Assembly (NCBI GenBank): GCA_003116975.1
Contig: BGKB01000096.1
Location: forward strand, 209,760 to 273,759
Direction: 5' to 3'
Origin: Aurantiochytrium sp. KH105
Taxonomy: Eukaryota; Sar; Bigyra; Thraustochytrida; Thraustochytriidae
Length of the DNA: 64,000 bases
The translations under genes and the position numbers were made by a program. Shown piece by piece: positions 35,295 through 63,267 of the stretch. The notes below the pieces were generated by a model. The model was not told where the DNA came from, searched no databases, and saw nothing but the letters and a program-made list of their open reading frames with translations. Positions within the stretch are counted from its first letter, which is position 1, and each line of letters begins with the position of its first letter.

Positions 35295-38200
35295 TTACGG
35301 CCAAAGCACCCGTCTAAGGCCATTGCGAAGAGTACCAAGGCCATTTGTAACTTCGTCTTTTCGTTCTGCTGACATCACTGCGTCCGGTAAGAGTTCCTTC
35401 ACTTTTGCAATCTTGATCCACCTAAATATGTCTTCGCTGGTCCTCGTCGAAGGAGCCCGTAGATGCTGATTCAGCTGGTCGAGAAACTCGGAAGGAAGAC
35501 GGCCATTGTTGAGCCTTTCGGTATAGTCCGTCAGGCGCTCGAGTAATCGTGACCGAATGCCAGAGTCAAGTGTCACGGTTTCCGTGCGGTTTCTTGACTG
35601 CGCCTCGGCCTCGCGAGTGGCCGCTTCTTCTTCTTTTTCTTCTTCTTCTTTTTCTTTCTCTTCTTCTTGCTCTTCTTCTTGCTCTTCTTCTTGCTCTTCT
35701 TCGTCTTCCTCTTCTTCTTGCTCTTCTTCGTCTTCCTCTTCTTCTTCTTCTTCTCCTCTCTCCACTTCTTCATCTGGTAATTCCTCATTTGATTCTGGTT
35801 GCGCTTCTGCGCCCGTGTCTCTGTAATATCGGTATCTCGAGCGGAATACTTCGTCGCTTTTCGCTTCTAGCACCCTCCGTCTGAGCGGCTGCCGCAGTGT
35901 TCGGATACCAGCCTTCCATTTTTCCTCGTCGTACTGGCTCATATCCAGCGCCTCATTGACATTTGTTACGTTCAGTGCAGTGAGGAAGTCATCACCGTCT
36001 CTGCACTTCGCGAGCTGCTCTTCAGCATAGTGGAAGACTTCAGGCGGTAGTCTCTTGTGTTCCTTTTTCTTTTCCTCTTCCTTTTTCCTGGCTCGGTCGA
36101 GACACGACTGAAGCTCATTCCGTAATTCTTCTGTCATTGTCTCTTCACTCGCCTCTGGGGTGCTAGCTTCCACCCCATTATCCGACGGCCTGGGAGAGTT
36201 CAGGTCTTGAGGTTCTGCACTGGATTCTTCTTCTTCTTCTTCTTCTTCTTCTTCTTCTTCTTTTTCTTCTTCTGCTGCTGCTGCTGCTTCTTGCACCCTA
36301 CGTCTGAGCGGCTGTTTCAGTGTTTGGATACCAGCCTTCCATTTTCCCTCGTCGTACTGGCTCATATCCAGCGCCTCATTGACGTTCGTTACGTTCAGTG
36401 CAGTGAGGAAGTCATCACCGTTTCTGCACTTCGCGAGCTGCTCTTCAGCATAGCGGAAGACTTCAGGGGGTAGTCTCTTGTTCTCCTTTTCCTTTTCCTC
36501 TTCCTTTTTCCTGGCCCGGTCGAGACACGACTGAAGCTCATTTCGCAATTCTTCTGTCATTGTCTCTTCACTCGCCTCTGGAGAGCCAGCTTCCACCCTA
36601 TTTTCCGACGGCCCGGGAGCGTTGCGGTCTTGAGCTTCTGCACTCGTGCTCATTTGGTCGTTCATGCTCTCCTGAGGTGACTCGTAATTGCGCTGCGCTC
36701 GGAGACTATCAATATCGCGTCTGAGCGCATATTTGAGCGAAGTGATGGCAGTTTTTGCACCCTCATTGAATGCGTCGCCGTTGACGCGCTTGAAAACGCT
36801 GGGGCTGAGTTTGTTGATGAACTCCTTGAAGCCCTTGCACCTTCTGAGCTGTTCTTCGGCATGCTGAAAATAGCTGTTTGGTAGGGGCGTCGATCCACTA
36901 TTGGCCTTTTCGAGACACTTTTGACAGACCTCTCGCATCTCGTCATCAAAGCTGTCACTTTCGGCGTCGGGGTCTGTTTCCGAGGGAGTTGGCGCTTGAA
37001 AAGCGCTCACCTGAGAACTTATACCTCGGGCCTGTGTTCGTAACGGGGTGGAAGGCGCGTTCTCCGTGCTTGTAGCTCGTGGCGCCGCTGGACTAGATTG
37101 GCTTGGCTCGTCGTGGTTGCCATTATCAGCCACAGAATGTTTCCGAAATTTCGTCATCTCGCGCTTGAGCGCTTGTTTGAGCGAATTTATGGACGTCTTT
37201 GCATCCTCAGTCAGTGCATCATCGTCAACATCGTCGTCATCGAGCGAGCTTTCGCGCTTGAAAACGCTGGGGCTGAGTTTGTTGATGAACTCCTTGAAGC
37301 CCTTGCACCTTCTGAGCTGTTCTTCGGCATGCTGAAAATAGCTGTTTGGTAGGGGCGTCGATCCACTCTTGGCCTTTTCGAGACACTTTCGACAGATCTC
37401 TCGCATCTCGTCATCAAGGCTGTCATTTTTGGCGTCGGGGTCTGTTTCCGGGGGAGTTGGCATCGATGTGGCTTGCAGGCGTTCATGCCCTTCTTTCTGC
37501 CTGTCCATGATCGGTGACTCCATCGCCGAAGAGTGCGAACTCTTAACCTCCCCCTTAGGGGCGACCGACCCAAACTCTTTTTCAGGACGCTGCCGCTTGC
37601 CGGTGCGATCGTCATTGTTATCGGGCGGGAATCGTTTGCGAGACGCCGACTCCTGCTTGAGGCGCACCGGAGTTTGAGCGCGTTTCTGCGAAGGTGTACT
37701 GCCCTGCGATAAAGAGCGTTTCTTACCTCGGCGCTTTTCAGACTTAAGAGACGTAAGAGACGACCGAGAGGCTGCAGAGCTTGATGATGATGACCGCCGC
37801 TGGAGCACAGGTCTCACGATATCTGCGGGCATAGAACCAACGAGTATAAGGCGGCACGCAAAAGGCGTGTCAACGACTGCCTCATTGTGAAGATACAGCT
37901 TGCAGCCAACGCGATCTTTCAGGTCGACCACCCCGACACTCAAAAGTTCCCCGGAAACTTCTTGGAAGTGCTCCTCGTCGCAAGTCCGAATTACAATGAG
38001 AAGCTTGGAGAAATGAGGGGGCGTATGCAACGCAAGAGTGTTATACTTGCTGACTTTGGAAAACTCCACGAGGCAAACTTGGATGGAGTGGGGCGTGGGT
38101 CCGCCAGAATCATCAATCCAGTGATATACTTCAGACGCCCAGCGATCCGCCGGGGAGAATGAGCTTCTCATGTGCCCTGAAACCGGCGGCACTGCCTTGA

Positions 38201-41200
38201 GACCACCCTGAGTATCTCGAAAATGTTCCAGTGCAGGCCGTAAACCGTCAGGAAAGCTAAGAGACTCAATAATCTTGCGGTTCGCTCGCCTGCTTCCAAG
38301 CTTGAGGTTTTTCTTGTGGTGAAAGAAACGATTCACCTTGAGGCAAACGAGGCCCGCCTCATCCACAAGGTGGTTAAACTCGACGTCTTCCCAAAACGTT
38401 TTCACAGGAAAGAACACACCCTTTTTCACGGTGCTCTTAACGTTCAGGTAAATGAATGAATACACCGAGTATGAGATCATGAATGGATGCTCCGACTCCG
38501 TCTGGCGAGCTTGTGCATCTCGCCGAATGCCAATGAGGCCGTAATTCTCGGCGCCCCCGATAAACTGATCCGTGTTTGTTGCTCGCGCCGTTGGGTCGGC
38601 GCGAGGCGCGGGTTTACTGCGAACTAGTGCCCGGGGCCACTCGTGCATGCGTTTATCCTGAAACTGCTCGGAGCGTTTCTGGACAATTGCCTCCACTCCT
38701 TTCATCACTGTTGCAAACGTGCAAGGTGCAGGACCTTGCCTGAGAGTCTGCAAGGGCACACTGTCATCAACGAGAGTTCGCTCGTAGCAAACGTCCACAT
38801 TGTCATCAAGGATCCACACCCAATTGAGCTTAAGCTGAGAGGCGGCGAGCTGGATGAAGAGTCGGGCAAAACCGATCCCACCACGGTCTGCAAATACGAA
38901 CTCACCGGGTCGCTTTTTGGATGGCATTTTGGAAGGGAGCCCAAGCACGAGATGGGCCGACCCGTACGCAGCGACGTAATCATCGAACTGTTTTCCGCTG
39001 CGTACCACGATGCATACCACCGTGCGTAGGCTGTCCCCGTCTTTGGGAATGGCACAGTCGTAGTCTAACAGGGCAACGCCTGCGCGATTGTACGATGGAA
39101 CAAAGGCCCAGCGAACAGACTGTGTCCCGTGAGACTTGCGCACTGTCCGTGTCGCCGTGTCCACATTGAGCAAAGACGTTTCCGGGCTGGAACCGTCGGC
39201 ACCCATGAACACCTCAGCCCCATGGACGTCCGCGCGCACCGCAAGACCGCAGAAACCGCTGTACGGCACAGATAAGCAGGCTCCCTCCCCAATGAAGCTC
39301 AGATCAGTCATGATATGCTGCTTTGCATTATAGACATTGTCAAACTGAGGCGTCACAGGCCGCGCAGCAACAGGTGCGTAGGCAGTGTGCATTTGTGTGT
39401 GCTTTGAGCGCGTGACAAGCATTTGATGAGATCGCACACGCACCCCAGCTTGAATTGGATGCTGTCCTCGAGCACCAGCGTCCCAGAGCATGCTTTGCAC
39501 ATATACCTTTGCAGCCCGAAGGTGCTGCACGAAACGTTGCATCACAGAAGTACCTTCCAAAGGCGGGGCCGGTTGGGTGTTGTTTTCTGCGAGCGCGCCG
39601 GACAGCTTGGAGACATTCTCATCTTGCAATTGTTCCGCAACTTTGTCTTCCCATTCACCGGAGAAACGTCCGTCAAAGTTTACGCACGCGATCGCAATGT
39701 CGGGCCTCGAACAGCGCGAGTTCTCAAAAGGTTTATCAAATGCTGGGTTTCGGTCCAGCTTCCTGATCTTCGCCAAGCCCGCCTCACTTTGAATTGCTTC
39801 ACCATCTTCTGCGCGGAGATAATTCTTGTAATTCGCGAGCCACCTCTTCCCTTGCTCGCAAGCTAACATCAGCGCAAGAATACGTTGCTGCATGACGGTC
39901 GGGTGATACTGGCCCTTGTTCGGTTTGTCGTACTTAACACGCAACTGCGGAAACTTTGATACGACCAAATTGCCCCAGTATGGCAGCGTCCATAGTTTCC
40001 TGGGTACGGGCACCATGGGCGGAGGTGCCATCGGCACATCGAGCTCGATCACATCCTTTAAAAGGCGGATAAAGTGTAGGTATGTCCCTGTTTTACCCTG
40101 CTGGCACTGGGCCATGAGCAAGAGTCGGCGAGGATCTTGCCCGCCATTGTACGAGCTATCGTAATGCAAGTTTCTTCCCGCCACAATAATCCCCTCGTCG
40201 CCAGCTTCTTTCCCCTCTGCTGCGCCTGCTCCTCGTCTAGCTCTTCTCGTTGGAGCAACTGGCCGCTGTCTGCGGTAGGCGACGAGGTCATGTAGAGGAT
40301 TCGTGACGTCAATCTCACCATTGTCGTTGAAACTCGCGCTTGGCACCGGGGGTCTTCTTCGGCCTCGACCAGGCCCTGCAATGTAGTTGTCAAGCTGCCC
40401 AGGGATGCATTGATCGATGCGCCGCATACCCCAGGTGCCGCGATACTTGTGCTCGATTGCCTTTTGTACTTGGTTGTTGAAGCGATCCTTGTTCATCAAT
40501 ACTGTTGGCAGCACGTGCACATAGCGTTTCGCCGTCCAAATACCAAACCGAGACTGTACGCCAGCATCTTCCGAAGTGAGTTGAAGAGCTCGAAGCAGCC
40601 CACTTCGAAGCTGGTGCTCAGAGTCGGCATGAAAGCGTACTTGCTTGCCAGGATCTAGCACCGCGTAACTCCCACCCTTTGCAAAGAAACGTTTCACGTC
40701 ATTGTCTGCAAAGAAGGAAGCGAGATCCTCTTCGAGGGCTGTCCACTCCACATTGTCCGTACCGTCGTCGTGAGCGGTTTTCATCACCTTGAAGCAAGCT
40801 ATCGATGACTCGTCGGCATCAAGGCCCGGATACCGACACACGCGGCCGAATTCTTGCACAAATGTGGAGTACGTCTTTGATGAACGTAGACGAATGTCGA
40901 GAAAACGAAACGAGTGCGGGAACGTGTCACCCATTCGACCCTTCTCGCAGAGAATCACAATCGCGGGCAGATTCTCGAGATCCTCGTACTTGGCTTCCTT
41001 TTGCACTGACTTGGGCTCGTGGCCCTTTTCTGCGGCTTCGAGCTCTTCGCGAGCCTTAGCCTCTGCAAAAGCTGTATTCACGCGGTCGACCAGAGTCTCA
41101 GGGTCCTCTGGTTTGTCACGTTGCAGACTTGGGTGCCGCAGGTCGCGTGTCAAGGTCCAGTCTTCAATTTGACTCAAGAGACTAGTCGCACCCCGTGAAG

Positions 41201-44200
41201 CCTCCTCTCTCCTGCCGCTTCTACTTCTTCTCTTCGCGTCATTTCCGCCCACATCTGCAATAACGCTCAGCACACCGCCATGTTTCGCATCGGTGAGCTC
41301 GAGCTTTTTCAGCGCGCTGCGGAGACAGTCCTGAATCGACAAGTTCTCGTCAGTCTCGTATACGCGAACGACTGCCATCCGACCAGTGTGGTATTGCGGG
41401 TCCACGTCGAGCAGGTCATGGAGGAGACGGTCCGTTTCGTTGTACCATGTCTGAGATGTATTCCCCTGCTCATCTGCATGATCTTCCATGTTGCGCTCTA
41501 GCTTTTCTGAGACAATGTATTGCCAGGCCAAGAGCCAGGCGCTCGCAATGTAAGATTTGCGATCATTGCAGTCACGCCCCGGTAAGGGAGCCTTGCTCTG
41601 ATTGTTCTCGTCCTCTTGGCACAATAAGGCTTCGAGCGCGTCAACCCAGTCCTGGCCGAGACGGACACGCAATGCTTCTCTCACGTCGTGCTCACGAAGC
41701 TCGCTCCATACCTCAGTGTACATTCGGTTGAGAAGCACATTGATGACCGGCTGCACAGATGCATCTTCTGTGCCATCAGCACTCTTGAAGCTGCCGACTT
41801 CCATAGATTGCCTGCGCGAGGCATTTGGCCAGAGCTTGGTCGCAAAACCGAGGTGTGAGGCGAACCTCTTCAGCAAGTTGTCGTCGCAAGCATCCTGGCG
41901 AATAACGTCCTTATTGAGTGCTTTGAAGATCGTTGTTCGTTCGTCATCCTTGGTGCCAGAGTTCCACAATTTAGGCAGGAATTCCACGCGATAAACAGCC
42001 AGAAAGACCAGTGACAAGAGGTAGTCGACCATGATAAAGTGCCCGTCATAAAGTGGTGTCGAGCTGGCCACCCTCGTACCAATCTGCTTGCGCTTCGCAT
42101 TGTTTCTTTTGCCGAACGCAGCATCCATGTTGTCCTTCATCGTCTGGAAGGCTTCGTCTCGCAATACGCGCTGGCGCCGACGAGGAAGGCAGTCGGGTGC
42201 GATATCTTGATGTACCTGGTCCGTGTCGCAGAAGAGAGGGAGACTAGATGCTCGGATCATAGACGTTGTAAGGCTTGCTGCATTCGCTCCTGTAGTTTTC
42301 TCTGCCTTTTTATTTTTGTCTCGGCGAAAACCAAGCCAGAACATCAGGCCTGTACCGGGCGCAAATGCATCGTCTTCAATCTGAATCACATTTGGCAATT
42401 CGAGTTTGATGTAGCTGTTCAATGATGTCGAGAAGACAGGGCCGTGTCTGAAACCTGTTGTTGAGTTTTCCGCGAGAGCGATTGAAACTGCCTTTGTGAG
42501 CACATGGCAATAGGCGCTGTACTCGTGCGTGGGAAAGCGAAAAACTTGACCATGCAGACCACGTGGATTTACTTCTATCACGCGCTGCGCGTTACCTTCT
42601 GTCGTGACCTTGAGACGGAGGGGATGGATATTCTCGGGGACAGCCCACGTTGCGGTTTCTACGTAGTAGTCCATGCTTCTGTAAAGCGAGGCATCTCTGT
42701 GCCAGCAGACGACATTCTGTGGGGCAATACGAGACTTGTTCGTTAGAACGTTCTGTGGGGTGGCTGACACCAGCAAACGCAAGACATTCTTGCCGTTAAG
42801 AAGCTCGTTGTTGAGCAACCAGTCGTGTGCCCCGTTCTTCGTAGGCGCGTAGTGACACTCGTCGGCGATGATGACAAGAAGGGTTCTCGGGTCCCGCGCC
42901 TCGGCCTCCATCCAGTCACGATGGTCCTGCATCACAGTATGAGGAACCTTGGTGTGCTTGAGCACTCGACCGTTCTCGAGCATGGCCCGACGGACTCGAT
43001 CTGCGGTTTGGGACTGGAGTGAGTTGAAGTTGGGTGTCAGCACAACGAATGAAACCTTGTCAAAGCGAGAGACCCAATCTGGTTTTTCTTGTTCAGGAAA
43101 CAAAGCCCTTCCTGCCTTTTGAAAGAGTTCTTCTGCAACATCACGCTGCTCAGGGTGCGCGACGTCAGGCTGCGCCTCTCCGGGAGGTTGCAGAGTAATC
43201 CTCTCGCGATCGATTGCATTTTCGGGCAACGATATACACACGCAGAGGATCGAGCGTTTCTCGCTCTCACTGAGCTTTTCGTCGCGCTCGGGGTCGTAGG
43301 CCATTCGCACGTCAGGATGAGGGCGTTGGCGGAGCTTGAGTCCAAGGCGCGCAAGCGCACGAGCAAGCTGTTCCCAGGCTATGTTCTTGCGCGTTTCTAC
43401 AATGGCGTCACCATCGCCAAGGAGGAGCTCTCGAGCGACCTCCTGTCGCGCCGTAACTGCTTCTGGGAAAAGGGGCATGGTGAGCTCAAATTGACCCTCT
43501 TGCTCGTGAGCATCCCCAGTACCACGCGTCACAAAATAAATTTGCACGGGCTGGTCTTCTCCCAAGACATCTGTGTCGTCTTCATTTTCGTCTTCAATGT
43601 CTTCGGCCTCCTGGGCACTTCGACTTTGCTCAAGAAGTTCCCGAATGCGCCTGCGCTCATCGGGGTGGATCACGAGGATAATACTTTCAATGTCTTCTTC
43701 ATCCATGTCACGCAACACGATCACGCGAGTTCCCGAAGCCTCTGCTTCGGCGAGCTCGTTTTGGAGCTCGTTTTGCAAGCTGTCGGACTTTCGGAGCTGC
43801 ACGTAGGTCATGCTTCTCCTGCCGCTCCTTCGTAGCGGTTGAAGGGCGGATTCACTTTGAGAGGAAAGGCGCTTTTCAGCGAAATTAGCGAGCAGATTTC
43901 GAACATCGCTGAGATCCGTAGGCACATTGAGAGAGGCGTCGTTGACGCTCGCCAAGGGCCCGTCGCCGATGATTTCGTTCAAGCAGATACTGAGAATGTC
44001 GAGGCCCTCAATTTTTCTCTTGACATTCCCCCAGTAAACCGTGTAGACTTTCTTAAGACCATCAACATCCTCGAGGCCCCCAAGCGCGCCAGCGACGGTC
44101 GAGACCTCGTCGCCTTCAGTTGTCGCCGCGTCAAGGCCCTCCGGCAGCCAGCAAACACGCAGAAGCTCGGTGAGCGCCGCAATCTCGAGTCTGTCTCTCC

Positions 44201-44321: not shown

Positions 44322-44685
44322 GGCCGTCTCCGCCTTTGAGTTTTGCTTCGACGTCGCAGGCCTGCCTCCTCTCGATCATATAGTCATTCCCATCCTGCTC
44401 TACTCGTGTACCTCCCAGCAGGTGCAGCTGCAGCTGCAGCTCGCGCGCCACGTCATGCACGACAATTCCCGTTCTACTGGTGCGTGCTGCGGGGGCTTCT
44501 CCGACTGCGGGGCACAATCGTGCTGGTGGTCCCCGACTGAGTCGCCTCCCTCTTCCCACACCTCTTACCTTGTCCGGATACCTTCTCCAGCACACAATCG
44601 GCCACAGTTGGCGAAGATTTTCGCCCACCGCGGAGCGCGTGCACGAGCACGAGTATGCGAGGATGCGAGCCGGGCAGTCTCCGAA
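44322..44685. promoter_or_regulatory. Compact bidirectional promoter, giant gene A and the LRR gene
   Basis: 364 bases separate the divergent start codons of gene A (44321, -) and the LRR gene (44686, +). It contains GCAGGTGCAGCTGCAGCTGCAG (two bases over a simple GCAGCT repeat; near 44419-44440) with CAGCTG E-box-like sites. Shared control of the two genes is inferred from the spacing. Confidence 0.5.
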
Positions 44686-52400: not shown

Positions 52401-54141
52401 TCACGCGGGGATCAATAGAAAAGGTCTCGCCCTCAAACTTGAGCTGCAATGGGCTCACACCTTTTGGTACTGCCCACGTTGAGGTTTCCACGTAGTAGTC
52501 CATGCTACGATACAAGGAAGCTTCCGTGTACCACGATACGATGTTGTCATCTTTGATGCGCGAGTTGATCGTAAGTGTATTCTGAGGAGTCGCCGATACT
52601 AGAAGTCGCAGAACATTGTCGCTTTGTAACATATCGTTGTTCAGGAGCCAGTCATGAGCGCCATCCTTTGTGGGGGCAAAGTGACATTCGTCGGCGACGA
52701 TGACGAGGAGTGTTCGCGGATTCGACGCCTCGCGAATCATCCAGTCGCAATGGTCTTGCATCAACTTTTTCGGATACTTGGTGTGCTTGAGCACAAGGCC
52801 ATTATTAAGCATTGCGCCTCGCACGCGACCGGCGGTCTGCGATTGCAGCGAGTTGAAATTGGGTGTAAGCACAACGAAGGAAACCTTGTCAAAACGACCC
52901 ACCCAATCGAACTTCATGTCCTGATTTCCAAAGAGCGCGCGTGCGGCTTTACCAAAGAGTTTTTCGGCAATCATGCGCTGCTCTGGAAAGGTCACATCAG
53001 GCTGAGAAAGTCCCCCCAGCTTGTTGTGCATGTCCCTGCGCCGAATGGCTTCCGCTGGCACATGGAGCTCCACGCACAAAGTTGTTGGCTTCTCTTCCTC
53101 GGCGAGATCACCGTCACGCTCAACGTCGAAGGTCAACTTGATCTGCGCTTCCTTTGTATCACAAACTTTCATGCCAAAGCTCGCAAGCGCACGGGTAACC
53201 TGCTCCCAGGCACTATCCTTGCGCGTTTGGTAAACTGCATTGCAATCTTTTATGAGGAGCTCCTCTGCGAGAGCTCTGCGATCTGTCTCCGCTTCGGGTA
53301 GACTTGGCATGACCAGCTCGAGCTCACCTTCCTGTCCATGGACCTCATTGGAGCCTTTGGCCACGAAGACAATCCGAACAGGCTGCTCCTCGCCATCGAA
53401 CACGCTTTCACCTTCGAGCTCATTGTCGATTTCCTCCTTTTCTTGGCTTTCAGTACTTTTCGCGAGAAGATCGCGTGCGAGCGTAGTATCCGCGGATCCA
53501 AGAGCCACCACAATGCTCAATACACGACCATATCCCGCCTCTTTCGGTTCGTCCGCAGCGTCGCAAATGAGTATGATGCGAGTCTCATGGTCCCTACCGC
53601 CAATCTCTTCCAGCAGCTCCTCTTGCAAGCTCGCGGAATCCTCGAGACACTTGAAGAATTCACTAGCATTTACTCCAAATCTGAGCATTCGAGGCGTGAC
53701 CTCCTTGTTCCATCGCTTTGCCGCCAGCCCCGTCAACAGCTTGACAGTAAAGTCTGCGTGTCCCTCCGCGCGCAGACAGGCTTTGTCCACATCTGAGAGT
53801 CTCTGGATAATAGTCCCCTTAGTAGCGTCAGCTATGATACCCAGGCAGATTCCAAAGAGGTCGAGACCCTCAAACCCGCCTTCCTTGTACAGCTTCTTCA
53901 GCCCGGCCACATCCTCGAGCCCGTCCTCGTCCGTGTCCGCGAGCCAGCACACGCGCAGGAGCTGCGGCAACGCCTGCAAGTCCACCTTGCCCTCGCCGCT
54001 CAATTGCCGCAGCGCGGCCGGGCTGTTCTCCACCTCCTCCTCCAACTCCGTCGCGGCCTCCGCATTGATCACCAGCACCAGCGGCGGCGCCACGCTCGCC
54101 GCCGCCTCCTCGCGCGTCGCCTCCATCGCCGCCGCCTCCAT
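46426..54141 (-). CDS. GREB1-like giant protein B: circularly permuted SF2 helicase + TAGT-like glycosyltransferase + Cys/His-rich tail (2571 aa)
   Basis: I start at ATG 54141 (MEAAAMEATREEA), the first one beside the conserved N-terminal block LVLVINAEAATELEEEVENS; the frame is open to 54576, but that part is Arg-rich and not conserved. Helicase motifs are again permuted: Ia T426, II D484-E-C-H (VADECHF), III SATP, V-like EKGRMGDTFPHSF, VI Q1139 (QEFGRVCRY), Walker A G1376-K-T (QCQQGKTGTY). The glycosyltransferase motif is WILDDDVDVC with D1793-D1794-D1795, a full DDD where A and C have DDN. The post-TAGT small domain is present (WASETRSW...VCLLEASD). The Ser/Arg-rich linker has a 16-residue tandem repeat, and the tail (about 2385-2505) is rich in Cys/His (CENHMDP, FYCRRH, CSRCLEDDQC), shared with protein C. 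No helical module is present at the end. Confidence 0.84.
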   Translation of the reverse strand: MEAAAMEATREEAAASVAPPLVLVINAEAATELEEEVENSPAALRQLSGEGKVDLQALPQLLRVCWLADTDEDGLEDVAGLKKLYKEGGFEGLDLFGICLGIIADATKGTIIQRLSDVDKACLRAEGHADFTVKLLTGLAAKRWNKEVTPRMLRFGVNASEFFKCLEDSASLQEELLEEIGGRDHETRIILICDAADEPKEAGYGRVLSIVVALGSADTTLARDLLAKSTESQEKEEIDNELEGESVFDGEEQPVRIVFVAKGSNEVHGQEGELELVMPSLPEAETDRRALAEELLIKDCNAVYQTRKDSAWEQVTRALASFGMKVCDTKEAQIKLTFDVERDGDLAEEEKPTTLCVELHVPAEAIRRRDMHNKLGGLSQPDVTFPEQRMIAEKLFGKAARALFGNQDMKFDWVGRFDKVSFVVLTPNFNSLQSQTAGRVRGAMLNNGLVLKHTKYPKKLMQDHCDWMIREASNPRTLLVIVADECHFAPTKDGAHDWLLNNDMLQSDNVLRLLVSATPQNTLTINSRIKDDNIVSWYTEASLYRSMDYYVETSTWAVPKGVSPLQLKFEGETFSIDPRVMTADGKRYFRYPMHEYKAFCEVLNLRVSETLPAHATQRLTKNATYFAYARERIVLNMPCDVEILPENFQTGSGVLYWLGFERDKIDLDKKKPTRGKPRQCIRLNATSVPLFCDTERKEEHNDIVVDCMPRRRQRVLKDAAFDTVRELIEDSYGKRTAQKRKQQGVKVSPSTPLYDGHIVLADYLLSLTYLAIYRVDRKKLWDQSIERETIFRDLELHDIGQLVLNTSLLVEFATHLGFAKRLEDSPGKAREVCINKAREVCVFDIAGGIEEASVQHLVDILLEATVRGAWKELALEKVQKTLRERLGNAWVDEMKTLLPYKENEASHSHWRFGWQYIISEKLARNREDDAHVQGNTSEAWFNETDRLLHDLLDVHPRYRTGRMAVIRVYETDENLSIQDCLRCALKKLGLTHVEHGGILSVVADVGGSDGKKAESAARGKMKKARAATSLFQRLESWSLTRDLRHPTKQARAPGASETIVDRVNRSYAESKAREEFEAQQHNRKPAPVSEETAKYEDLENLPSIVILCEKGRMGDTFPHSFRFLDIRLRSSETFSTFVQEFGRVCRYPTLDADEATIGRFKVTKADAQEADTALEEALTHFLSSDSVRQYFAKGGSFAVLDPGNEVRFHADSEQHFRSKFRQSLQQQSISRRSSLGTWTAQRYVHVLPTVLMNAKRYNAQLQKAVEHKYRDARGLQRIDQCIPGNIDLYMWTHQRSRTSKAAHPKTVPGRTSEGAEAINVENPLHDIAAYRKTYPSGSQVPGDLTAYGSRPAHYDCDHDGTKDPRRLLLMAQCQQGKTGTYLHFIRLLKEAIEVDFPASPSALAPIKGPSWRWPYWADLAVAKCPPMREVYDKPRKSHQHPVVLQQRVLALLAACRDAERWLEKYTQYLSAGDGEGIKSKAGVDCVRSLQENLQASSPPFKGSHCDDVETAAECINFDGRFTGSWRDDIQAQLNDKENLQKMEAALPGGLTLTSPKSAVLQATLAQSQEVKDIAKRALMIQSEVQLPPLTRAQFAQRHATYAAVAARKVSPLFDRRYREKPHVITDLQLVGEDVSLSIPYAGFQGLTADAHANHVQGFISNGMNESRMSLFEVNLEARNMKTLADASAVRWVFVPSFDRAGVALLDYEHAIPRNDDIKPTVICIVVRSGRQFEEYVASYGSAHLVLSLPSRLTLPSQLEENVSHLENGPYGFARLFIQLVASDLDLSWVWILDDDVDVCFQRDLVDNDDADADKSPTALAQPKIPKPCTFSAVMRGVEDIVHGEDTAFAVNTEKKRMANWPPSEPVIRRESLPPMANEGASTKAEWTGGSDQYGLIGIRPFPRDGQISEDELPFQVSGMVKTFLYLNVARTVQTGALFPAKQHWENVEFNHLIDEAGLVCLRTNRFFLHQRNLQPGRKAPARKFVTSLHYPSLKAALEHFRDKYGTLLATQAVSKLAPKQFSAANCWASETRSWIASQEGGTLHVCLLEASDCNNFNTLALYAPENVGKVLVVVRSSDEKHFEEMSALQDTSFFQLKDRPKCTLHLHEEVRSEDALLARLLLFDTSELQPFQQHGSTTDTGSGTNVSSRLKPRRSSSSLASISGKSRRMSLHRLESDSSLRSIQPGIVDTGVRSGQSLEKRRRISVSSLSDKSPAADSSAPRRSRSRSRLSPQDKASTTSLERSASLASNTSLSAEKSSLQSATNMADCMSDSSLGSPPGMDVDSLASPQVIQQRRAIKRSYDSALSEKQTKERRASSSSKEDGKQTKKRRASSSSKEDEKQTKKRRASSSSKEDGSCAAQTSIVSHRDDSPTPQYDMIRSTTCSEVLENEEKCGADTYRGYNVCENHMDPRELFKCKDFRKKLCRFTELRSHRRAETNLEDDTPDLSSLEDRREPVFTCHRKIKRSERKKSFYCRRHIEQNAHLCDTDSCDQPRYKDHAFCSRCLEDDQCKSRDKRRQSSAFKRDFTVGEDAYDGPEQREKLMEDLRKYSEYIPAGECITSNDGRSQLGN
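47078..47222 (-). repeat. 48-bp coding tandem repeat, three copies
   Basis: Three near-identical copies encode KQTKKRRASSSSKEDE-type units in the linker of giant protein B. Each unit contains a basic KKRR cluster followed by a Ser run and an acidic end, like a repeated nuclear-signal or kinase-site motif. Confidence 0.85.
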
Positions 54142-54828: not shown

Positions 54829-57800
54829 TCATGCGCCATCATAAAATTCGCGGCGCAGAGCGTTACGAAGCCTTGCAAGGCCGCTTTTGCATTTGTCGAT
54901 GCGCTCATCTGTTTGCTCATCAGAGTTGATGAACGACTGTGCCTTCTTGATAGTGATCCAGTCGAAGATGTCTTGGCTAGTTTTGCACGAAGTGACATGG
55001 GCAAGTAGCTCCTGATAGAACTCACGAGGAGGATTTCCGTCAGGTGCATACTTTGTCTTTAGATCTTGAATTTTCTTCTCAGCCTTGGCTTTCGTGGCTG
55101 CCGAAAGAGGCACAGAAGAAAACTTTCTTCTGCCCCCCGACGTTGGCTTCTGCGTACGTTTCTCGATGGATTTGGGTGTAACTGGGGCACCCCCTGCGCT
55201 TGTCCGAGAAGACAACCTCGACTTGTCATCACTTGAGGATGACGATGAGTTTGACAGTGCTACCGCACCATGCTCGGAGGATCCTTGAGACGAGGTTGAT
55301 TTTGTTGCTTTGGGAGTTGAGGTTTTGCTATCGTCAACCTCAGACTCTGCCTCAGACGAAGAATCGGCGAGTGGACTTGACAGGTCAATGACGAACTGAG
55401 CTGAGCTCGGACTGGGCGAATTGAGCTTTGTTTTCTCAGCCTCTTGTGGTTCGAGTGCTTGGGGATCCGAAGAGTTGTCTTCGCCTTTCTCGTGCTCGTC
55501 TTCGCCTTCCTCATCTCTCTCAACAATTTTAGTAAAGAGGGACGGGTCGATCTCGCTGGGGTCAACAATGCAGTCCTTCGGGGAGAGGAAGCGTGCGTTC
55601 TTGGTAATGCTGTTTATGATGCTTTTGCGAGTCTTGGCGGAAGGGTGTCCGTCACGATAGTCGCGTGGAATGTTTTCGGGTTTAAGCCTGATAAGCTGCT
55701 TGCCGGCGACTGCAAGCTTCTTCTTCTCAAGACAGTCCTTGCAGCAATTATAGTACCGGTAGCAGGCAGACCGGCAGTTGTCCACGGCACAGACGTCGTA
55801 CTTTTTCCTATGGTCTTTGCAAAAGGATGTTTCCTTTTCCTTATTTGCGTTGCAAGTAAAGGCGAAGGTGTACTTCGGACTCTCGCTGGCGTTTTTGAAG
55901 TGCGCTAGAGCTTTGTCACCGCCCTGCACAAGGCTCCAGTCGGCATCAAGACGCTTGATTTCATCTCTATCCTGCACAGGCTTAAGCGTTGCAGTGTAGT
56001 AGTATTCGACGCGCTTGCAAAGTTTGTTGCGGGGGTCGTTATGCTTAAATTTGATGGCGGGGGGGATGTGCTTGTTGCAGTAGCCGGGCGCGCTCTGGGC
56101 TGAGGGCTGCCCACAGCACTCGTTAGTCTCGGTGTTGATAATAATGGCGCAGGTGGCCTTCCTGCCTGCGGCCATGGAGTGCTTGCCGCAGAGGGGGCCG
56201 CCACGAACGGCAATATTAGTGCAGTCAATCCGTTTATTGGTCTTGGGGTGCACGTCCTGGCCGTTGCAGAGAGGGCGACCGTCGTCGGTGAAACGGGTTG
56301 CCCCTTCGTCTTTGCTAGAAGTGCGCTTGATCTCGAGACGAGACCTCTTGGGCAGTGTGCTCACATTGCCGTGTTCGTCGTCGCTCTCCACATTCCCGTG
56401 CTTGGGGGCATGCTCGAGGCCAGCATTGACGTCGGGGCGCACACGCTTCTTGCCAAAGTCCAACTCATTGGGTGGGTTGTCGTCCGAGGACACGTTGGTT
56501 TGGGCCGCTGAAGAGGTTGATAACTTGGAGGGAGTTGTTGAGGACAGGCTTGACGGATCCACAACTTTCAACTTCTTGCCCTCCTCATTACATTCGAGAG
56601 CAGTCTCAGTATGCGCGGACTTTAGGCTCTTGGTCGCAGACGCGTTAGATGTTGAGGCCAGCTCTGTGGCACTGTTGGGGCGTTTCTTGCCTCGCTCCAA
56701 GTCTCCGGAGCGACCAAAAGGGCTTGTGGAGGGGGAAACACTCGAGCGGTCATGCCCTGTATGCGGAATTCCAAAATCGCCGTGAGCGCTTTTACCGCCG
56801 CTCTTGTCATCCTCGTCATCGCCATTGTTGTCGATATTGTCGCCGTCGCCGTCGTTAGACGAGACAACTTTTACTTCTCGAGAGCTTGGCAGGGTAATTG
56901 CAGGTGGCTCGGTCCCTGCAAAGAACAACTTTGTAGCAAATGGGTCATCAATGTCCGCCTCGCGATAGATGCGAAAAGTGCAGTTCGGACGATTCTTCAG
57001 GGTTATGGTCTCGTTTCCCTCCTCGAGCTCACCAAACGCGCGAAGATCGTCGCGCCGAACAACAAAAAGAGAGTTCGTGGTCGAAGCGGGGACATGCAGG
57101 GCGATTCTATTGATCGCGCTGTCCGAAGCCGCCTCCAAAAAGTACACTGGAACCTTTGCGACACCCTCGCGAGAGCCTTCTCGTGCAACCCACTCTTGAA
57201 CAATGGCTGCCCAGCGATGCGAGGGCGGAAAACTTGCGCGTAGCTGACTTGAGAGCAGCTGGCCCGGCGCGAGACCGCCATATGTATCTCGGAAGTGTAC
57301 TAACGCTTCCTTCAGGTGCGTAAAGTGCGCAGGCGCTTCACTGAGAGAGTCACGTGCGGGTCCGCTTCGTGTTCCTAGCTTGAGATTTTTCTTGTGATGA
57401 TAGAAACGATTCACTTTGAGGCAAACGAGACCGGCCTCATCCACGAGGTGGTTAAACTCGACGTCTTCCCAAAACGTTTTCACAGGAAAATACACGCCGG
57501 CTCGCACCGTGCTGTCCACATTCAAGAGAATGAACGAGTACACAGAATAGGTGACAAGAAATGGAGCCTTGGGATCCTTTAGTCGGGCTTGAGCATCACG
57601 CCGAATGCCAATCAGCCCATACTGATCTGCTCCGCCTGTGAGCTGCCCTTTGGAACGGACAGGGAGGGTGCTGACCTCGGGTGCTGGGTGCCTGCGGATG
57701 CTAGGCCGTTTTGACCTCCGCACCTGCATTTGCTTCTCGTCGCCTGTCAATTGAATCGTTTCTTCCTCGTTTTGAACGATGTGCTCTACTCCAGTCATCA

Positions 57801-60800
57801 CGGTAACAAATGTACAAGGGTCTGGCGGTGCTTTCGGCGGGTTACTTGGTACATTGTCAAGAAGCATTCGCTCGTAGCACACATCAACGTTGTCGTCTAA
57901 AATCCAAACCCAGGGGAGGCCAAGCTCGGAAGCTGCGAGTTGGATGAAGAGTCGCGCATATCCGATGCCACCCTGTTCTGCCGTCACGGACTTCGTACGA
58001 TCCACCTTGGAAGGCATTTTCGGCGGCAGACCAAGCACAAGATGCGCCGACCCATAGTTAGCGACGTAGTCTTTGAATTGTTGGCCACTTCTCACAACAA
58101 TGCAAACCACTGTGCGTTTGCCCTGATTGTCTTTTTCGTCAGGTTCTGGTATCGCTTTCTCGTAATTTAAAAGAGCAACACCGGCACGATTGTATGAGGG
58201 GACAAATACCCAACGCACGTCCTTTGCCTCCTTGCGCGCGCTCATGCGCAGCGTCTCGGATACTTTGCTCACTGTCTTGGATACTTTGCTCGCCGGCTTG
58301 GGAACTTGGCTCACATCAAAGAGCGGGACGCGTTTCGACTTTGCATCAAGGTACACTTGCACGTTGTCCGCATCTGCATAGACGGACAAGCCTTGAAAAC
58401 CAGAATACGGCGCAGAGAGACTCACGCCCTCAGCGACGAGCTCGATGTTGTGAACCTCATGCTGTTTTTGGCAATACTTTTCGTCAAAGCTGCGCGAGAT
58501 TGACTTTGCAGCAACGCGTGAATACGCACGTTGTTGGGGCGTCGAAAAGGTCACTCGCTCCATGTTTTCCCGCGAAATCGAGTTGAGAGCCTTGCGATCA
58601 CGTCCTCGGGCTCCGGCGTCCCAAAGATGATTCTGCACATAGGCTTGCGCGGCGCGCAGACGCTGAGAAACAGAAGCATCCTGCGACTGTCCCAAGGAAC
58701 TTTTACGAAGCGCACTAAAAAGCATAGCTGTAGCTTCAGGACTATCCCAGATCTCCTGAAAGTTGATCTTCCACTCAGGAAGACTGAACCTGTCATCAAA
58801 ATTGACGCAGCGGAATGCGAGTTCGGTATCTGTGTGGTTGGCTGTGATAGGAGCTTCCTTTTTTCCGATAAATTTCTCGAGATCTTTGAGCACCTCCTTG
58901 CCTGCTTTTGACTGTATCGCCTCGCAATCTTCGACAAGAAGTTTCATAATGTAGAACTCTGACCACCATTCGCCTTGCTCCCCGGCAAGTGCGAGGAGAA
59001 GGAGGCGCTGCCTCATCACGGCCTCGTGGTATTGTCCGGTCTTGGGCTTGTCATAATCGTTCCTCATGGGCGGAAAACCAAGAGGACGGGATCCAATGAT
59101 CAAATTTCTCCAATATGGGAGGGACCAGCTAGCTCGCGCGACAGGTGGCAAGGGCTTGGGCGGCGCGGGAATAGCGACTTCTATGTGATCTTTAAGAAGC
59201 TTGATGAAATGAAGGTATGTTCCGGTCTTGCCTTGCTGGCATTGTGCGACAAGTAAAAGTCTACGAGGGTCCTTTTCACCATCTTGGGCCCAGTCATAAT
59301 GCGGCTGACGACTCTTGGATGATTTAGAGGACCGCTCATTGGCACCCGATTGGGGCTGCTGTGCACGATAAGCCCCATGATCGTGGAGCGGATTTATCAC
59401 CACTGTCGATCCGTTCTCAACGCGGATCAACTTCGGATGCGCTTTCTTTGTGGAGCGGCTTCGGTCGCTGGAGACGTAGAGGTCAAGTGGCCCTGGAATG
59501 CACTGATCGATGCGCTGAAGGCCATGCACATCACGATACTTGTGCTCGACTGCCTTTTGCAGCTGCGCGCCGAAGCGCTCTGCATTCATCAAAACTGTCG
59601 GCAGCACGTGCACGTACCGCTTGGCTTTCCACATCCCGAATCGAGCCCTCGAAGAGCTGCTCGGACAAAGAGCTGTTTCAAGCCTCGACCTGAATTGAAA
59701 TTCTGAGTCGGCATGGAAGCGGACCTCGTTGCCCGGATCCAGCACCGCGAAGCTGCCACCCTTGGCAAAGTAATCTTTAACATCACTCTTCCGAAAGAAT
59801 AAGTCCAGCTGACTTCGAAGCTCGGACTTATCCACCCCATCAGTGGATTCCGGGCCCCTCTTGATGGTTATGCCCTTTACGTTGCTGTCGTCAAGCCCTG
59901 GATAACGACACACGCGTCCAAATTCTTGAACAAAGGTAGAGTATGTTGGTGATGAGCGCAGACGAATATCTAGGAAGCGGAATGAGTGCGGAAAGGTATC
60001 CCCCATGCGGCCCTTTTCGCACAAAATGACAATGGTCGGCAGATTCTCCAGGTCCTCATACTTTGCAGTTCTTTGTACGTTTCTCGGTTTGGCTTGTTTC
60101 TTTTGCGCTTCGAGCATTTCTCGAGCCTTCGCCTCCGCAAAAGATCGATTGACGCGATCTTTCAAAGTTTCATGCGCGTCTGGATCGCTCTTCTGTTTGC
60201 TTGGGTGCCGGAGGTCTCGGTCCAGCACCCAGGACTCGATTTGAGTGAACAAGCTTGTCGCCCGTCGTCCGGGCCTTTGCTGCTCGTTGGTATTCCCCTT
60301 CTTGCCGTCACTCCCGCCAACATCGGCCACAACGCTGAGCAGGCCGCCATGGTCATTGTGCGTGAGCCCGAGTTTAATGAGGGCGCTGCGCAGGCAATCT
60401 TGAATGGAGAGGTTCTCATCAGTTTCATAGACGCGAATGACGGCCATGCGGCCTGTGCGGTACTTGGGATGAACGTCGAGCAGGTCGTGCAAGAGACGGT
60501 CTGTCTCGTTGTACCATGCCTGCGAGAGGTTGCCCTGCTGCTCGTTTAGATCTTCCAAATTGCCAGCCATCTTTTCTGACAGTACAAATTCCCAACCGAC
60601 TTGCCAATGATCGGGAGTATTGCGAACCTTTTTTTCCCTTAGCTTCTCCATTCGTTTTGTCCACTCCTCTCCAAAGCGTTTGTTTAGCACTTTATAGTCC
60701 GCTTCAGCCATTTGGTTCCAGGCGGCTTCTAAAGTCGCCGTGAGAAGAACATCGAGGACATGCTGCACGGAAGCTTTCTCAACGCCGCCTGCAATGAAGA

Positions 60801-63267
60801 ATCTGCTGACGTCCTTTCTCTCGTTCTTTTGGCGCCCAAGCTTTTTGGCAAAGCCTAGGTGAGTTGCAAATCGTTCGAGCATTTCTTCATTGGTCGCACG
60901 CGAGCCGATGTCAGCTTCATTCAGGGGCGCGAATATGCTTGTGCGATTCTGGTCAATCTTCCAAAGGTCGTCATGGGCGACACGGTAAACTGCCAGGTAT
61001 GTCAGCGAAAGAAGGTAGTCCGCTAGGATGATGTGACCGTCGAAGAGAGGTGTTGACGGCGCGACCCTGTTGGCTTGGTCTTTGCGCCGCGCGTCTGTAC
61101 GCTTTCCATAATTGTTTTCGACGAGTCGCCGAACTTCATCAAAGGCGTCGTCCTTGAGCACTCGTTGTCGACGACGCGGAAGGCAGTCCACCGTGTTTTC
61201 ATTCGCAGTGTCACACAGAAGAGGAATACCTGAGGCGAGCAAACCTATGCACGTCGTGCGTTTGTCCGTCTTCTCCTGGAGCTTGTCGATCTTCTCTTTG
61301 TCCTTGGAGAATCCGAGCCAATAAAGAAGACCAGACTCCTTTTCATACCCTTCCGCCTGGATCTTGACATCCTTTGGCATTTGGATCTGCACATGTTCTT
61401 TCCCCGAGATAGCACTAAAGAACTTTGCAGTCTTATTCATCTTCTCCTTGGCTTCCTTGGGCAAGATTTTTCGCAACTCCTCGTCAAGGACCTCGCAAAA
61501 GGCTTTGTACTCGTGCATGGGATAGCGAAATGGAAGTCCTCTCTCCGTCTTCATACGAGGATCAAGGCTGTAAGTTTCGTTGCCGTGTACGAGTTTGAGT
61601 GGCTGAATGCACTCTGGCACAGCCCAGGTAGCGGTCTCTACATAGTAGTCCATGCTCCGATACAGCGAAGTCTCTTCGAACCAGCAGATCACGTTAGCCT
61701 CATCGATACGCGATTTGCTCGTGAGCACGTTTTGAGGTGTTGCCGAAACGAGAAGACGAAGTACATTCATTCCCTCCAGTTCGGAGTTGTTGAGAAGCCA
61801 GTTGTGTGCGCCTTCCTGCGTTGGTCCATAGTGGCACTCGTCAGCGATGATGACAAGGAGCGTTCTTGGGGTCGAGGCCTCTCTGACCATCCATTGTCGG
61901 TGGTCTGACATAACCTTGTGTGGGACTTTTGTGTGCTTAAGTACAAGACCCCCTTCGAGGTTTGCGCGCGTAACTCGATCTGAGGTTTGCGTTTGGAGAG
62001 AGTTGAAGTTGGGCGTGAGCACTACAAAAGAAACTCTGTCGAATTGAGATGCCCACGACGCGTCTTTTGAAGACAGAATTACTTCTTTGGCTCTCTCAAA
62101 CAGCTTTTCGGCGATGAGGCGCTGCTCTGGATGAGCAACGTCGGGTTGAGCTGACCCTGCTTCTTGTTCAGGCAGATCGTCACGCTCAATCGCTTCATCT
62201 GGAATGGCAATGTGCACACTAAGGAAAACAGGCTTCTCATCGTCTTTGAGCTTGGAGTCTCTGGTCTGATCGAGCTTCATGGTGATGCGGTTGTCTTGGC
62301 GCTCGCGAAGTTTGAGTCCAAAGCTGGCCAAGGCGTGAGTGAGCTGTTCCCAAGCCCTCGATTTGCGCGCGCTCAGCAAAGCATCGTCATCTCTTGTAAG
62401 GATTTCTTGGGCAAGAGCTGCACGCTCATCAGAATTGCCAGGAAATGGCGGCATAGTAAGCTCCAATTCGCCTTGTTGTTTGCCGACCATGCTTGACTCG
62501 TTGATGACAAAGGACACCTGCACAGGTACGTCCACGCCAAGCAAGTCTGTGTCATCTTCGTCCTCGTTAGCAATGACATCATCTTCTTGGCTCTCGAGAC
62601 CCTTCTCGAGGAGTTGCTTTGCAAGGGAAACCTTGGATGATCCCAGCACGAGCAAAAGGCTGATAATGCTGCCACCTTCCGACTCGCGAATGGCGATCAC
62701 GCGAAATCGACCGTTGTCAGTTTTTTGAATCGCAGAAAGAAGATCGTTCTCGACGTCATCCGAGTCTTCAAATACTTCGGCGTATGCTCCTTTATCCTTG
62801 CGTTTCTCTCTCTTGGCTGTTTGCCGAAGGTTTTTAAACAAATTCCTGTTCTGACGCGACAGCTTCTTTGCGGCGAGATCCCGAAGAACTTCACGCACAT
62901 ACTCGATGTCCTCGTGGACTTCAATCCCAGCTTCGTCAGCAGCTTCGGCAGCGGATAGGAGGTGGCTGTCTGGGTCTGTAGCGATCTCGACGAGCGAGTA
63001 GGCGAAAAACTCGAGACCTTCCACAGTATGACCATTCGCTTTGTACTCCTTTCTGAGGCCTGCGACGTCCTGGAGACCCCCTTCATTCTCGCCACGCATC
63101 CACCACACGCGGAGGAGTTGCGGCAGCGCCTCTGCGTCGATCGTACCGTCTTTGCAGAGGTCCTGCACGGCCGCGGGGCTGTTCTCCACCTCCTCTTCAA
63201 ACCTCGTCGCGGGCTCCGCATTCAGCACCAGCACCAGCGGCCGCGGAGCGGTCTCGCTTGCCTCCAT
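54829..63267 (-). CDS. GREB1-like giant protein C: circularly permuted SF2 helicase + TAGT-like glycosyltransferase + Cys/His-rich region + one helical module (2812 aa)
   Basis: I start at ATG 63267 (MEASETAPRPLVLVLNAEP); the frame extends upstream only to a GTG. Motifs in order: Ia (VVLTPNFNSLQTQ), II D476-E-C-H (ADECHY), III LLVSATP, V-like EKGRMGDTFPHSF, VI QEFGRVCRYPG, then Walker A G1346-K-T (QCQQGKTGTY). The TAGT-like domain has D1791-D1792-N1793 (WILDDNVDVC) and VEFNHLVDEAGLVC. The small post-TAGT domain (WAAIVQEW...VYFLEAAS...IALHVP) is followed by a disordered linker, a Cys/His-rich region (about 2323-2540: CGKHSM, GYCNKH, FCKDHRKKYDVC, CCKDCLEKK) and a single C-terminal helical module (about 2720-2812) like the fifth module of A. 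It is the most complete of the three, with both tail types. Intronless, tandem upstream of B. Confidence 0.85.
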   Translation of the reverse strand: MEASETAPRPLVLVLNAEPATRFEEEVENSPAAVQDLCKDGTIDAEALPQLLRVWWMRGENEGGLQDVAGLRKEYKANGHTVEGLEFFAYSLVEIATDPDSHLLSAAEAADEAGIEVHEDIEYVREVLRDLAAKKLSRQNRNLFKNLRQTAKREKRKDKGAYAEVFEDSDDVENDLLSAIQKTDNGRFRVIAIRESEGGSIISLLLVLGSSKVSLAKQLLEKGLESQEDDVIANEDEDDTDLLGVDVPVQVSFVINESSMVGKQQGELELTMPPFPGNSDERAALAQEILTRDDDALLSARKSRAWEQLTHALASFGLKLRERQDNRITMKLDQTRDSKLKDDEKPVFLSVHIAIPDEAIERDDLPEQEAGSAQPDVAHPEQRLIAEKLFERAKEVILSSKDASWASQFDRVSFVVLTPNFNSLQTQTSDRVTRANLEGGLVLKHTKVPHKVMSDHRQWMVREASTPRTLLVIIADECHYGPTQEGAHNWLLNNSELEGMNVLRLLVSATPQNVLTSKSRIDEANVICWFEETSLYRSMDYYVETATWAVPECIQPLKLVHGNETYSLDPRMKTERGLPFRYPMHEYKAFCEVLDEELRKILPKEAKEKMNKTAKFFSAISGKEHVQIQMPKDVKIQAEGYEKESGLLYWLGFSKDKEKIDKLQEKTDKRTTCIGLLASGIPLLCDTANENTVDCLPRRRQRVLKDDAFDEVRRLVENNYGKRTDARRKDQANRVAPSTPLFDGHIILADYLLSLTYLAVYRVAHDDLWKIDQNRTSIFAPLNEADIGSRATNEEMLERFATHLGFAKKLGRQKNERKDVSRFFIAGGVEKASVQHVLDVLLTATLEAAWNQMAEADYKVLNKRFGEEWTKRMEKLREKKVRNTPDHWQVGWEFVLSEKMAGNLEDLNEQQGNLSQAWYNETDRLLHDLLDVHPKYRTGRMAVIRVYETDENLSIQDCLRSALIKLGLTHNDHGGLLSVVADVGGSDGKKGNTNEQQRPGRRATSLFTQIESWVLDRDLRHPSKQKSDPDAHETLKDRVNRSFAEAKAREMLEAQKKQAKPRNVQRTAKYEDLENLPTIVILCEKGRMGDTFPHSFRFLDIRLRSSPTYSTFVQEFGRVCRYPGLDDSNVKGITIKRGPESTDGVDKSELRSQLDLFFRKSDVKDYFAKGGSFAVLDPGNEVRFHADSEFQFRSRLETALCPSSSSRARFGMWKAKRYVHVLPTVLMNAERFGAQLQKAVEHKYRDVHGLQRIDQCIPGPLDLYVSSDRSRSTKKAHPKLIRVENGSTVVINPLHDHGAYRAQQPQSGANERSSKSSKSRQPHYDWAQDGEKDPRRLLLVAQCQQGKTGTYLHFIKLLKDHIEVAIPAPPKPLPPVARASWSLPYWRNLIIGSRPLGFPPMRNDYDKPKTGQYHEAVMRQRLLLLALAGEQGEWWSEFYIMKLLVEDCEAIQSKAGKEVLKDLEKFIGKKEAPITANHTDTELAFRCVNFDDRFSLPEWKINFQEIWDSPEATAMLFSALRKSSLGQSQDASVSQRLRAAQAYVQNHLWDAGARGRDRKALNSISRENMERVTFSTPQQRAYSRVAAKSISRSFDEKYCQKQHEVHNIELVAEGVSLSAPYSGFQGLSVYADADNVQVYLDAKSKRVPLFDVSQVPKPASKVSKTVSKVSETLRMSARKEAKDVRWVFVPSYNRAGVALLNYEKAIPEPDEKDNQGKRTVVCIVVRSGQQFKDYVANYGSAHLVLGLPPKMPSKVDRTKSVTAEQGGIGYARLFIQLAASELGLPWVWILDDNVDVCYERMLLDNVPSNPPKAPPDPCTFVTVMTGVEHIVQNEEETIQLTGDEKQMQVRRSKRPSIRRHPAPEVSTLPVRSKGQLTGGADQYGLIGIRRDAQARLKDPKAPFLVTYSVYSFILLNVDSTVRAGVYFPVKTFWEDVEFNHLVDEAGLVCLKVNRFYHHKKNLKLGTRSGPARDSLSEAPAHFTHLKEALVHFRDTYGGLAPGQLLSSQLRASFPPSHRWAAIVQEWVAREGSREGVAKVPVYFLEAASDSAINRIALHVPASTTNSLFVVRRDDLRAFGELEEGNETITLKNRPNCTFRIYREADIDDPFATKLFFAGTEPPAITLPSSREVKVVSSNDGDGDNIDNNGDDEDDKSGGKSAHGDFGIPHTGHDRSSVSPSTSPFGRSGDLERGKKRPNSATELASTSNASATKSLKSAHTETALECNEEGKKLKVVDPSSLSSTTPSKLSTSSAAQTNVSSDDNPPNELDFGKKRVRPDVNAGLEHAPKHGNVESDDEHGNVSTLPKRSRLEIKRTSSKDEGATRFTDDGRPLCNGQDVHPKTNKRIDCTNIAVRGGPLCGKHSMAAGRKATCAIIINTETNECCGQPSAQSAPGYCNKHIPPAIKFKHNDPRNKLCKRVEYYYTATLKPVQDRDEIKRLDADWSLVQGGDKALAHFKNASESPKYTFAFTCNANKEKETSFCKDHRKKYDVCAVDNCRSACYRYYNCCKDCLEKKKLAVAGKQLIRLKPENIPRDYRDGHPSAKTRKSIINSITKNARFLSPKDCIVDPSEIDPSLFTKIVERDEEGEDEHEKGEDNSSDPQALEPQEAEKTKLNSPSPSSAQFVIDLSSPLADSSSEAESEVDDSKTSTPKATKSTSSQGSSEHGAVALSNSSSSSSDDKSRLSSRTSAGGAPVTPKSIEKRTQKPTSGGRRKFSSVPLSAATKAKAEKKIQDLKTKYAPDGNPPREFYQELLAHVTSCKTSQDIFDWITIKKAQSFINSDEQTDERIDKCKSGLARLRNALRREFYDGA

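Follow-up and report, generated by a model that had tools for sequence, protein, structure and literature searches.

Tandem GREB1-like genes of Aurantiochytrium sp. KH105 encode circularly permuted SF2 modules with retained ATPase motifs and a predicted glycosyltransferase domain

Three long open frames, arranged head-to-tail on the minus strand in the order C, B, A, were identified in a 64,000-nucleotide stretch of Aurantiochytrium sp. KH105 DNA (here called the window; bases 209760 to 273759 of contig BGKB01000096.1, or C96, in an assembly of 76.0 Mb and 367 contigs). Their products are members of the known GREB1 family, in which a circularly permuted superfamily 2 (SF2) helicase module precedes a TAGT domain. 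Family membership is not new in itself, as close relatives in the thraustochytrid Hondaea fermentalgiana are already named GREB1-like; the retained ATPase motifs and the neighborhood of the genes are. Coordinates are given in Table 1.

The Pfam profile cpSF2-GREB1, described there as a "circularly permuted SF2 helicase found in GREB1 proteins," matched A, B, and C with 361.4, 383.3, and 521.3 bits, respectively, against a curated cutoff of 26.2. C-terminal to this match, all three proteins also scored above the curated cutoff of the TAGT profile (E values of 3.6e-9, 3.3e-6, and 5.2e-11 for A, B, and C), B marginally so, with 0.1 bit to spare. An earlier note on this DNA, made without database searches, had proposed both the GREB1 identity and the TAGT domain and had named a profile search as the check; both profiles were found in every one of the three proteins. 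GREB1_N, the vertebrate-type N-terminal domain, was not among their Pfam matches at E values up to 1. A genome search for GREB1_N also gave no match, but neither did its control, so that its absence from the genome is not established. The frame of B (54576 to 46426) is open from a GTG at 54576, corresponding to 2716 amino acids, and its first Met codons are at 54141 and 54126, the latter coinciding with the start of the Hondaea gene model. The frame of C (63441 to 54829) is likewise open from a GTG, at 63441; position 63267, which the earlier note gave as the end of the array, is its first Met codon.

In A, B, and C, the conserved stretches follow the order DECH (residues 487, 629, and 534, respectively), SATP (519, 661, and 566), KGRMGDTFP, QEFGRVCR (1156, 1284, and 1172), AQCQQGKTGT (1404, 1516, and 1399), and WILDD(N/D) (1836, 1935, and 1846). 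If the stretches are named by the usual conventions for SF2 helicases and KGRMGDTFP is taken to be motif V, SF2 motifs I, Ia, II, III, V, and VI are present in all three proteins; no stretch was assigned to motif IV. The Walker A motif thus stands after motif VI, at start-to-start distances of 248, 232, and 227 residues in A, B, and C, which agrees with the 200 to 250 residues noted before. The only GK(S/T) found upstream of motif Ia is an HGKS close to the beginning of the C frame, ahead of its first Met; the earlier note had stated that no other GKT lies there. The same motif order was found in all 12 cpSF2-GREB1 open frames of the genome.

The circular permutation was further examined by rearrangement. 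The part carrying motifs Ia to III and the part carrying Walker A were taken from C, from A, and from P0007, a relative placed beside a Montipora protein in the tree described below, and three arrangements were scored against Pfam. In the natural order, ResIII, an ordinary SF2 profile, gave 24.4, 22.1, and 21.4 bits for P0007, C, and A, respectively. Relocating Walker A to the standard position raised the scores to 31.0, 29.0, and 28.0 bits in a single match covering profile positions 12 to 163, 14 to 163, and 8 to 163 of 164, whereas a shuffled Walker A part at the same place gave 19.4, 12.9, and 16.3 bits. As the score increased in all three cases, the GKT stretch behaves like the missing piece of the SF2 core rather than like part of a separate ATPase, and the permutation proposed in the earlier note is supported by both the motif order and this test.

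The structure models are less informative for the helicase part. An AlphaFold2 model of C residues 425 to 1480 was of low confidence (mean predicted local distance difference test score, 57.4; predicted template modeling score, 0.47). Nine of the top 10 structural alignments extended from model residues 7 to 13 to residues 992 to 1008, with 134 to 150 residues aligned, to folds that were not SF2 (best Z score, 8.5, near background). The N-terminal sheet together with its leading helix comprises only ~130 residues, which suggests that the strand and helix of Walker A (970 to 996) may complete the sheet. Given the low confidence of the model and the lack of an SF2 helicase among the matches listed, it indicates only weakly that the GKT loop packs against the DECH strand. 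The TAGT domain of C was modeled as well and resembled GT-A glycosyltransferases, so that a GT-A fold is predicted.

The family is not confined to the window. Genome-wide, 12 open frames contain cpSF2-GREB1, the same 12 carry TAGT, and none has a stop within the match. They correspond to six loci, each present on both of two haplotypes: A, B, and C on C96 and C182; D and E on C138 and C69; and F on C15 and C196. Over long aligned pieces, C182 is ~95 to 97% identical to the window at the DNA level. Many other family matches (PhyH, AlkB-like, and OGT) were also paired on different contigs, suggesting that the 76 Mb assembly probably comprises two haplotypes of ~38 Mb. The earlier description of a tandem array of apparently intact genes holds for the tandem duplication and the kept motifs; the set, however, consists of six loci on two haplotypes and not of three genes. 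The interpretation in the earlier note, which suggested an active glycosylation system linked to nucleic acid or chromatin, is supported in part. For F on C196, the frame begins within the N-terminal region, which means that the 5' portion has been lost or lies out of frame. The helicase motifs are retained in the 12 frames except for DDCH in place of DECH in locus E on both haplotypes (L029 and L031); the C15 copy of F has the variant GKTGA. The DD pair of TAGT is retained in all 12.

All six loci are under purifying selection. The ratio of nonsynonymous to synonymous substitution rates (dN/dS) was calculated region by region between the haplotypes with our own script (NG86 method); between paralogues A, B, and C, synonymous changes are mostly saturated. 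For A, B, and C, respectively, dN/dS was 0.28, 0.40, and 0.30 in the N terminus; 0.21, 0.14, and 0.18 in cpSF2; 0.48, 0.66, and 0.27 in the linker; 0.10, 0.30, and 0.21 in TAGT; and 0.53, 0.44, and 0.57 in the tail. The cpSF2 and TAGT regions are thus the most constrained in these three. The corresponding values for D, E, and F were 0.60, 0.56, and 0.42 (N terminus); 0.31, 0.36, and 0.45 (cpSF2); 0.81, 0.44, and 0.80 (linker); 0.32, 0.32, and 0.27 (TAGT); and 0.68, 0.56, and 0.37 (tail), those of F being the least safe because its alignment is poor.

A protein search with C returned 12 proteins, 3 of which were "GREB1-like protein" entries of Hondaea with the same two domains. One Hondaea protein, P0004 (4793 residues), contains the counterparts of both B and A, which are separate open frames in the window, and is probably a merged gene model; in the region compared, B, A, and the other haplotype of A were 92.6%, 92.2%, and 95.3% identical to it. 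A length-framed protein search, which excluded most corals, returned five proteins, all from Hondaea and none a vertebrate GREB1. In a profile search, 156 proteins matched among 7990 scored candidates, which had been preselected by shared words in a way that favors conserved motifs. Among the 120 matches listed, 105 had no species name; apart from Hondaea, the named ones numbered 14, all of them from stony corals (Montipora, Oculina, Stylophora, Porites, and Acropora). The coral proteins have the same domain order and retained motifs and are ~22 to 27% identical to the cpSF2 part of the window proteins; instead of tails of the window type, some of them have ankyrin matches. No publication dealing with both thraustochytrids and GREB1 was found in the literature searched, and none on a protist GREB1 was among the papers listed.

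In an alignment of 125 proteins (P0004, with its two modules, counted once, and 36 of the 156 profile matches left out), DECH, GKT, the motif VI residues, and the TAGT R, DD, and WE were present in 125 of 125 and SAT in 124. This count supersedes one made with a regular expression, in which only 78 of 122 proteins showed the full set of motifs in order; the expression had mishandled variants of motif VI as well as DD(N/D)V look-alikes occurring early. In an unrooted FastTree phylogeny of 38 chosen sequences and 1498 columns, the thraustochytrid proteins formed one group (support, 1.000), on a long branch among the others. The tree suggests that copies multiplied separately in the thraustochytrid and coral lineages.

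Relatives with described roles offer a frame for the function of these proteins. A review describes vertebrate GREB1 and GREB1L as likewise having a permuted SF2 module fused to TAGT and reports no helicase activity for them (PMC6163654); our comparison with the vertebrate proteins relies on that description and not on an alignment. The kinetoplastid base J system pairs an SNF2-type ATPase with the hydroxylation and glucosylation of a DNA base (PMC10057400): the SWI2/SNF2 ATPase of JBP2 makes DNA accessible, and glucose is added by JGT, a glucosyltransferase. There, separate proteins and a JBP hydroxylase are involved. The beta-glucosyl-HMC-alpha-glucosyltransferase of phage T6 (Ggt), a 261-residue protein without a helicase, is reported to act on glucosylated hydroxymethylcytosine; it has a Pfam TAGT domain, and its GI-x-x-(A/T)R and (I/L)DD(D/N) stretches align with the TAGT domains of the window proteins. 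JGT is a TAGT protein as well.

By analogy, A, B, C, and the three further loci, each with a cpSF2 module that retains ATPase motifs fused to a predicted GT-A TAGT domain, could be ATP-driven nucleic acid motors that use a nucleotide sugar to glycosylate a hydroxylated DNA base. This is the reading we favor, though tentatively, as one that is possible rather than probable. ATP hydrolysis would move the protein along nucleic acid or open it, the DD(N/D) pair would bind metal and the nucleotide sugar, and a hydroxylated pyrimidine would be the acceptor; differing tails might direct each paralogue to different chromatin targets. Compared with base J synthesis, motor and sugar transferase would here be one protein. 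A DNA acceptor is favored by the presence of the SF2 module, by C5-methylase domains at three places in the genome, by basic motifs and no membrane-like segment (in a scan without a control), and by those TAGT relatives whose biochemistry is reported, which act on DNA.

The main rival of a DNA-base acceptor is protein glycosylation, in which the SF2 module would bind or move on nucleic acid while TAGT adds, for example, N-acetylglucosamine (GlcNAc) to nuclear proteins; we consider such chromatin-bound enzymes possible but somewhat doubtful. Three observations favor them, the first two of which also weigh against base glycosylation. GREB1 is reported to O-GlcNAcylate a protein, estrogen receptor alpha (PMC10908778). 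Tet_JBP and 2OG-FeII_Oxy_6 gave no match in the genome, although this absence is weak, as the control genomes were silent too. The structural neighbors of the TAGT model, judged by title, use many kinds of acceptors. The biochemistry of T6 Ggt and JGT argues the other way. OGT-family genes, also present in the genome, count against a DNA acceptor as well; they give nuclear protein glycosylation another route and in this respect speak against the protein-directed role too. Further points against base-modifying motors concern the modules themselves: no SF2 helicase was present among the 50 matches listed in either structure comparison, the helicase model being of low confidence; the DDCH variant of locus E may impair that paralogue as an ATPase; and the WED stretch of TAGT, taken as catalytic, reads GED in F and WEN in B on both haplotypes. 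These DDCH, GED, and WEN variants would also fit a scaffold that retains the folds and has lost both the ATPase and the transferase activities, as would the review's statement that the GREB1 SFII module is catalytically inactive and presumably binds nucleic acid (PMC6163654). A scaffold is improbable, however, as all 125 aligned proteins conserve the helicase motifs and the TAGT DD and as dN/dS is low in the two modules, neither of which a dead enzyme would require.

We also consider improbable a conflict system in which an ATP-driven sensor glycosylates invading nucleic acid in order to mark or block it and fast-changing tails serve recognition. The similarity to ResIII would suit such a system, as would the grouping of copies by lineage in the tree and the occurrence of several copies both in thraustochytrids (six loci) and in single coral species (for example, at least three Oculina entries among the matches listed). 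The tails, moreover, are rated the fastest regions in A, B, and C (dN/dS, 0.44 to 0.57), with the linkers of B and A close behind. However, dN exceeded dS in no region for which both values were obtained, the neighbors are ordinary cellular genes (sortilin, a PP2C-kinase fusion, a helix-loop-helix protein, an exonuclease, and a kinase; nine frames scanned, two without a match), and two scans, each weak in being seeded with two short peptide patterns, confirmed no relative among 257 fitting stretches in viral contigs or 98 in prokaryotic contigs. A selfish or viral element as the main explanation was rejected on account of the cellular neighbors, the limitation to six loci, the lack of confirmed viral or prokaryotic relatives in these two weak scans, and the lack of inverted repeats (none of at least 60 nucleotides in the window; seed, 14).

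Next to A lies a PhyH-like gene of the 2-oxoglutarate/iron dioxygenase type in which HRD (HxD), the distal His, and Arg were recognized by eye, and which may be a partner of the array. Its tandem paralogue, in which HRD is lost, gave no PhyH match and is a probable pseudoenzyme. No further member of this family was found in the genome beyond the two genes and their alleles; PhyH matches occur at 28 other places, most of which form haplotype pairs. For the family, no solved relative was found and no NCBIfam match above the cutoff, and none of six candidate stretches in viral contigs was confirmed. A wider proposal would be eukaryotic DNA hypermodification outside kinetoplastids, in which GREB1-type motors glycosylate bases hydroxylated by this adjacent dioxygenase to give a new sugar-bearing base, animal GREB1 having descended from such an enzyme; we regard it as unlikely. 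Here, too, the evidence includes points against a role in base modification: the PhyH domain score was 20.4 bits, below the cutoff; the pair is found at one of three array sites; and the contigs that carry D, E, and F have no PhyH match. The adjacency, found by looking around and not predicted, may be coincidence.

Table 1. Features of the GREB1-like array and the adjoining dioxygenase-type genes (window coordinates)
Feature	Position	Strand	Remarks
Gene A, GREB1-like	35295..44321	-	ATG-initiated open frame, 3008 aa; Pfam cpSF2-GREB1 and TAGT; allele on C182
Gene B, GREB1-like	46426..54141	-	~2571 aa from first Met codon
Gene C, GREB1-like	54829..63267	-	~2812 aa from first Met codon
A cpSF2-GREB1 domain, residues 387-1428	40038..43163	-	Pfam PF20692, E 1.5e-107
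B cpSF2-GREB1 domain, residues 528-1537	49966..52995	-	Pfam PF20692, E 3.8e-114
C cpSF2-GREB1 domain, residues 435-1417	59191..62139	-	Pfam PF20692, E 6.7e-156
A motif II DECH	42852..42863	-	
A Walker A AQCQQGKTGT, 3' of motif VI	40083..40112	-	
B motif II DECH	52681..52692	-	
B Walker A AQCQQGKTGT	50002..50031	-	
C motif II DECH	61831..61842	-	
C Walker A AQCQQGKTGT	59218..59247	-	
A TAGT match, residues 1740-1877, with WILDDN	38691..39104	-	Pfam PF20691, 37.3 bits, cutoff 27.5
B TAGT match, residues 1837-1957, with WILDDD	48706..49068	-	Pfam PF20691, 27.6 bits, cutoff 27.5
C TAGT match, residues 1745-1858, with WILDDN	57868..58209	-	Pfam PF20691, 43.3 bits; GT-A-like model
PhyH-like 2-oxoglutarate/iron dioxygenase-type gene	32532..34511	+	First Met codon ~32736; PhyH 20.4 bits, cutoff 22
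Tandem paralogue of the PhyH-like gene	30624..32174	+	~44% identical to that gene; RVD in place of HRD on both haplotypes

The tails contain further sequence elements. In the tail of A (35295 to 37470), a unit of ~65 residues, recognized by eye and without a Pfam name, recurs ("LPNSYFQHAEEQL..." and "LPPEVF.YAEEQL..."), and A and C both seem to terminate in a unit like it (C tail end, 54829 to 55300). DNA repeats D7 and D13, together with two exact matches, reflect this unit. The tails of B (~2500 to 2660) and C (~2390 to 2570) have Cys-rich stretches ending in CxxH, which are perhaps zinc binding. Three such stretches occur in the whole B tail, one of them outside the cluster (two on the other haplotype), and three in C on both haplotypes, against ~0.4 to 0.5 expected by shuffling; there are none in A, D, E, and F. 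A CxC6 Pfam match was at chance level (E value, 0.76). Elsewhere in the window, a single plus-strand protein (21754 to 25176) combines a PP2C phosphatase, two cyclic-nucleotide-binding stretches, and a protein kinase, and positions 25607 to 26040 hold a tandem repeat spaced at 18 bases, with 17 overlapping register copies.

GREB1 is studied in hormone-driven cancers, and both the enzyme status of its helicase and glycosyltransferase parts and their substrate are poorly settled. The proteins described here keep the ATPase and transferase motifs in several diverged copies in a unicellular lineage, and their interest lies in the retention of helicase motifs in a module whose vertebrate counterpart is called noncatalytic in a review (PMC6163654). 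If the DNA-base reading were true, Aurantiochytrium would be a eukaryote outside the kinetoplastids that puts sugar on its DNA. The poorly understood, human-relevant GREB1 family is likely to be approachable in a single-celled organism.
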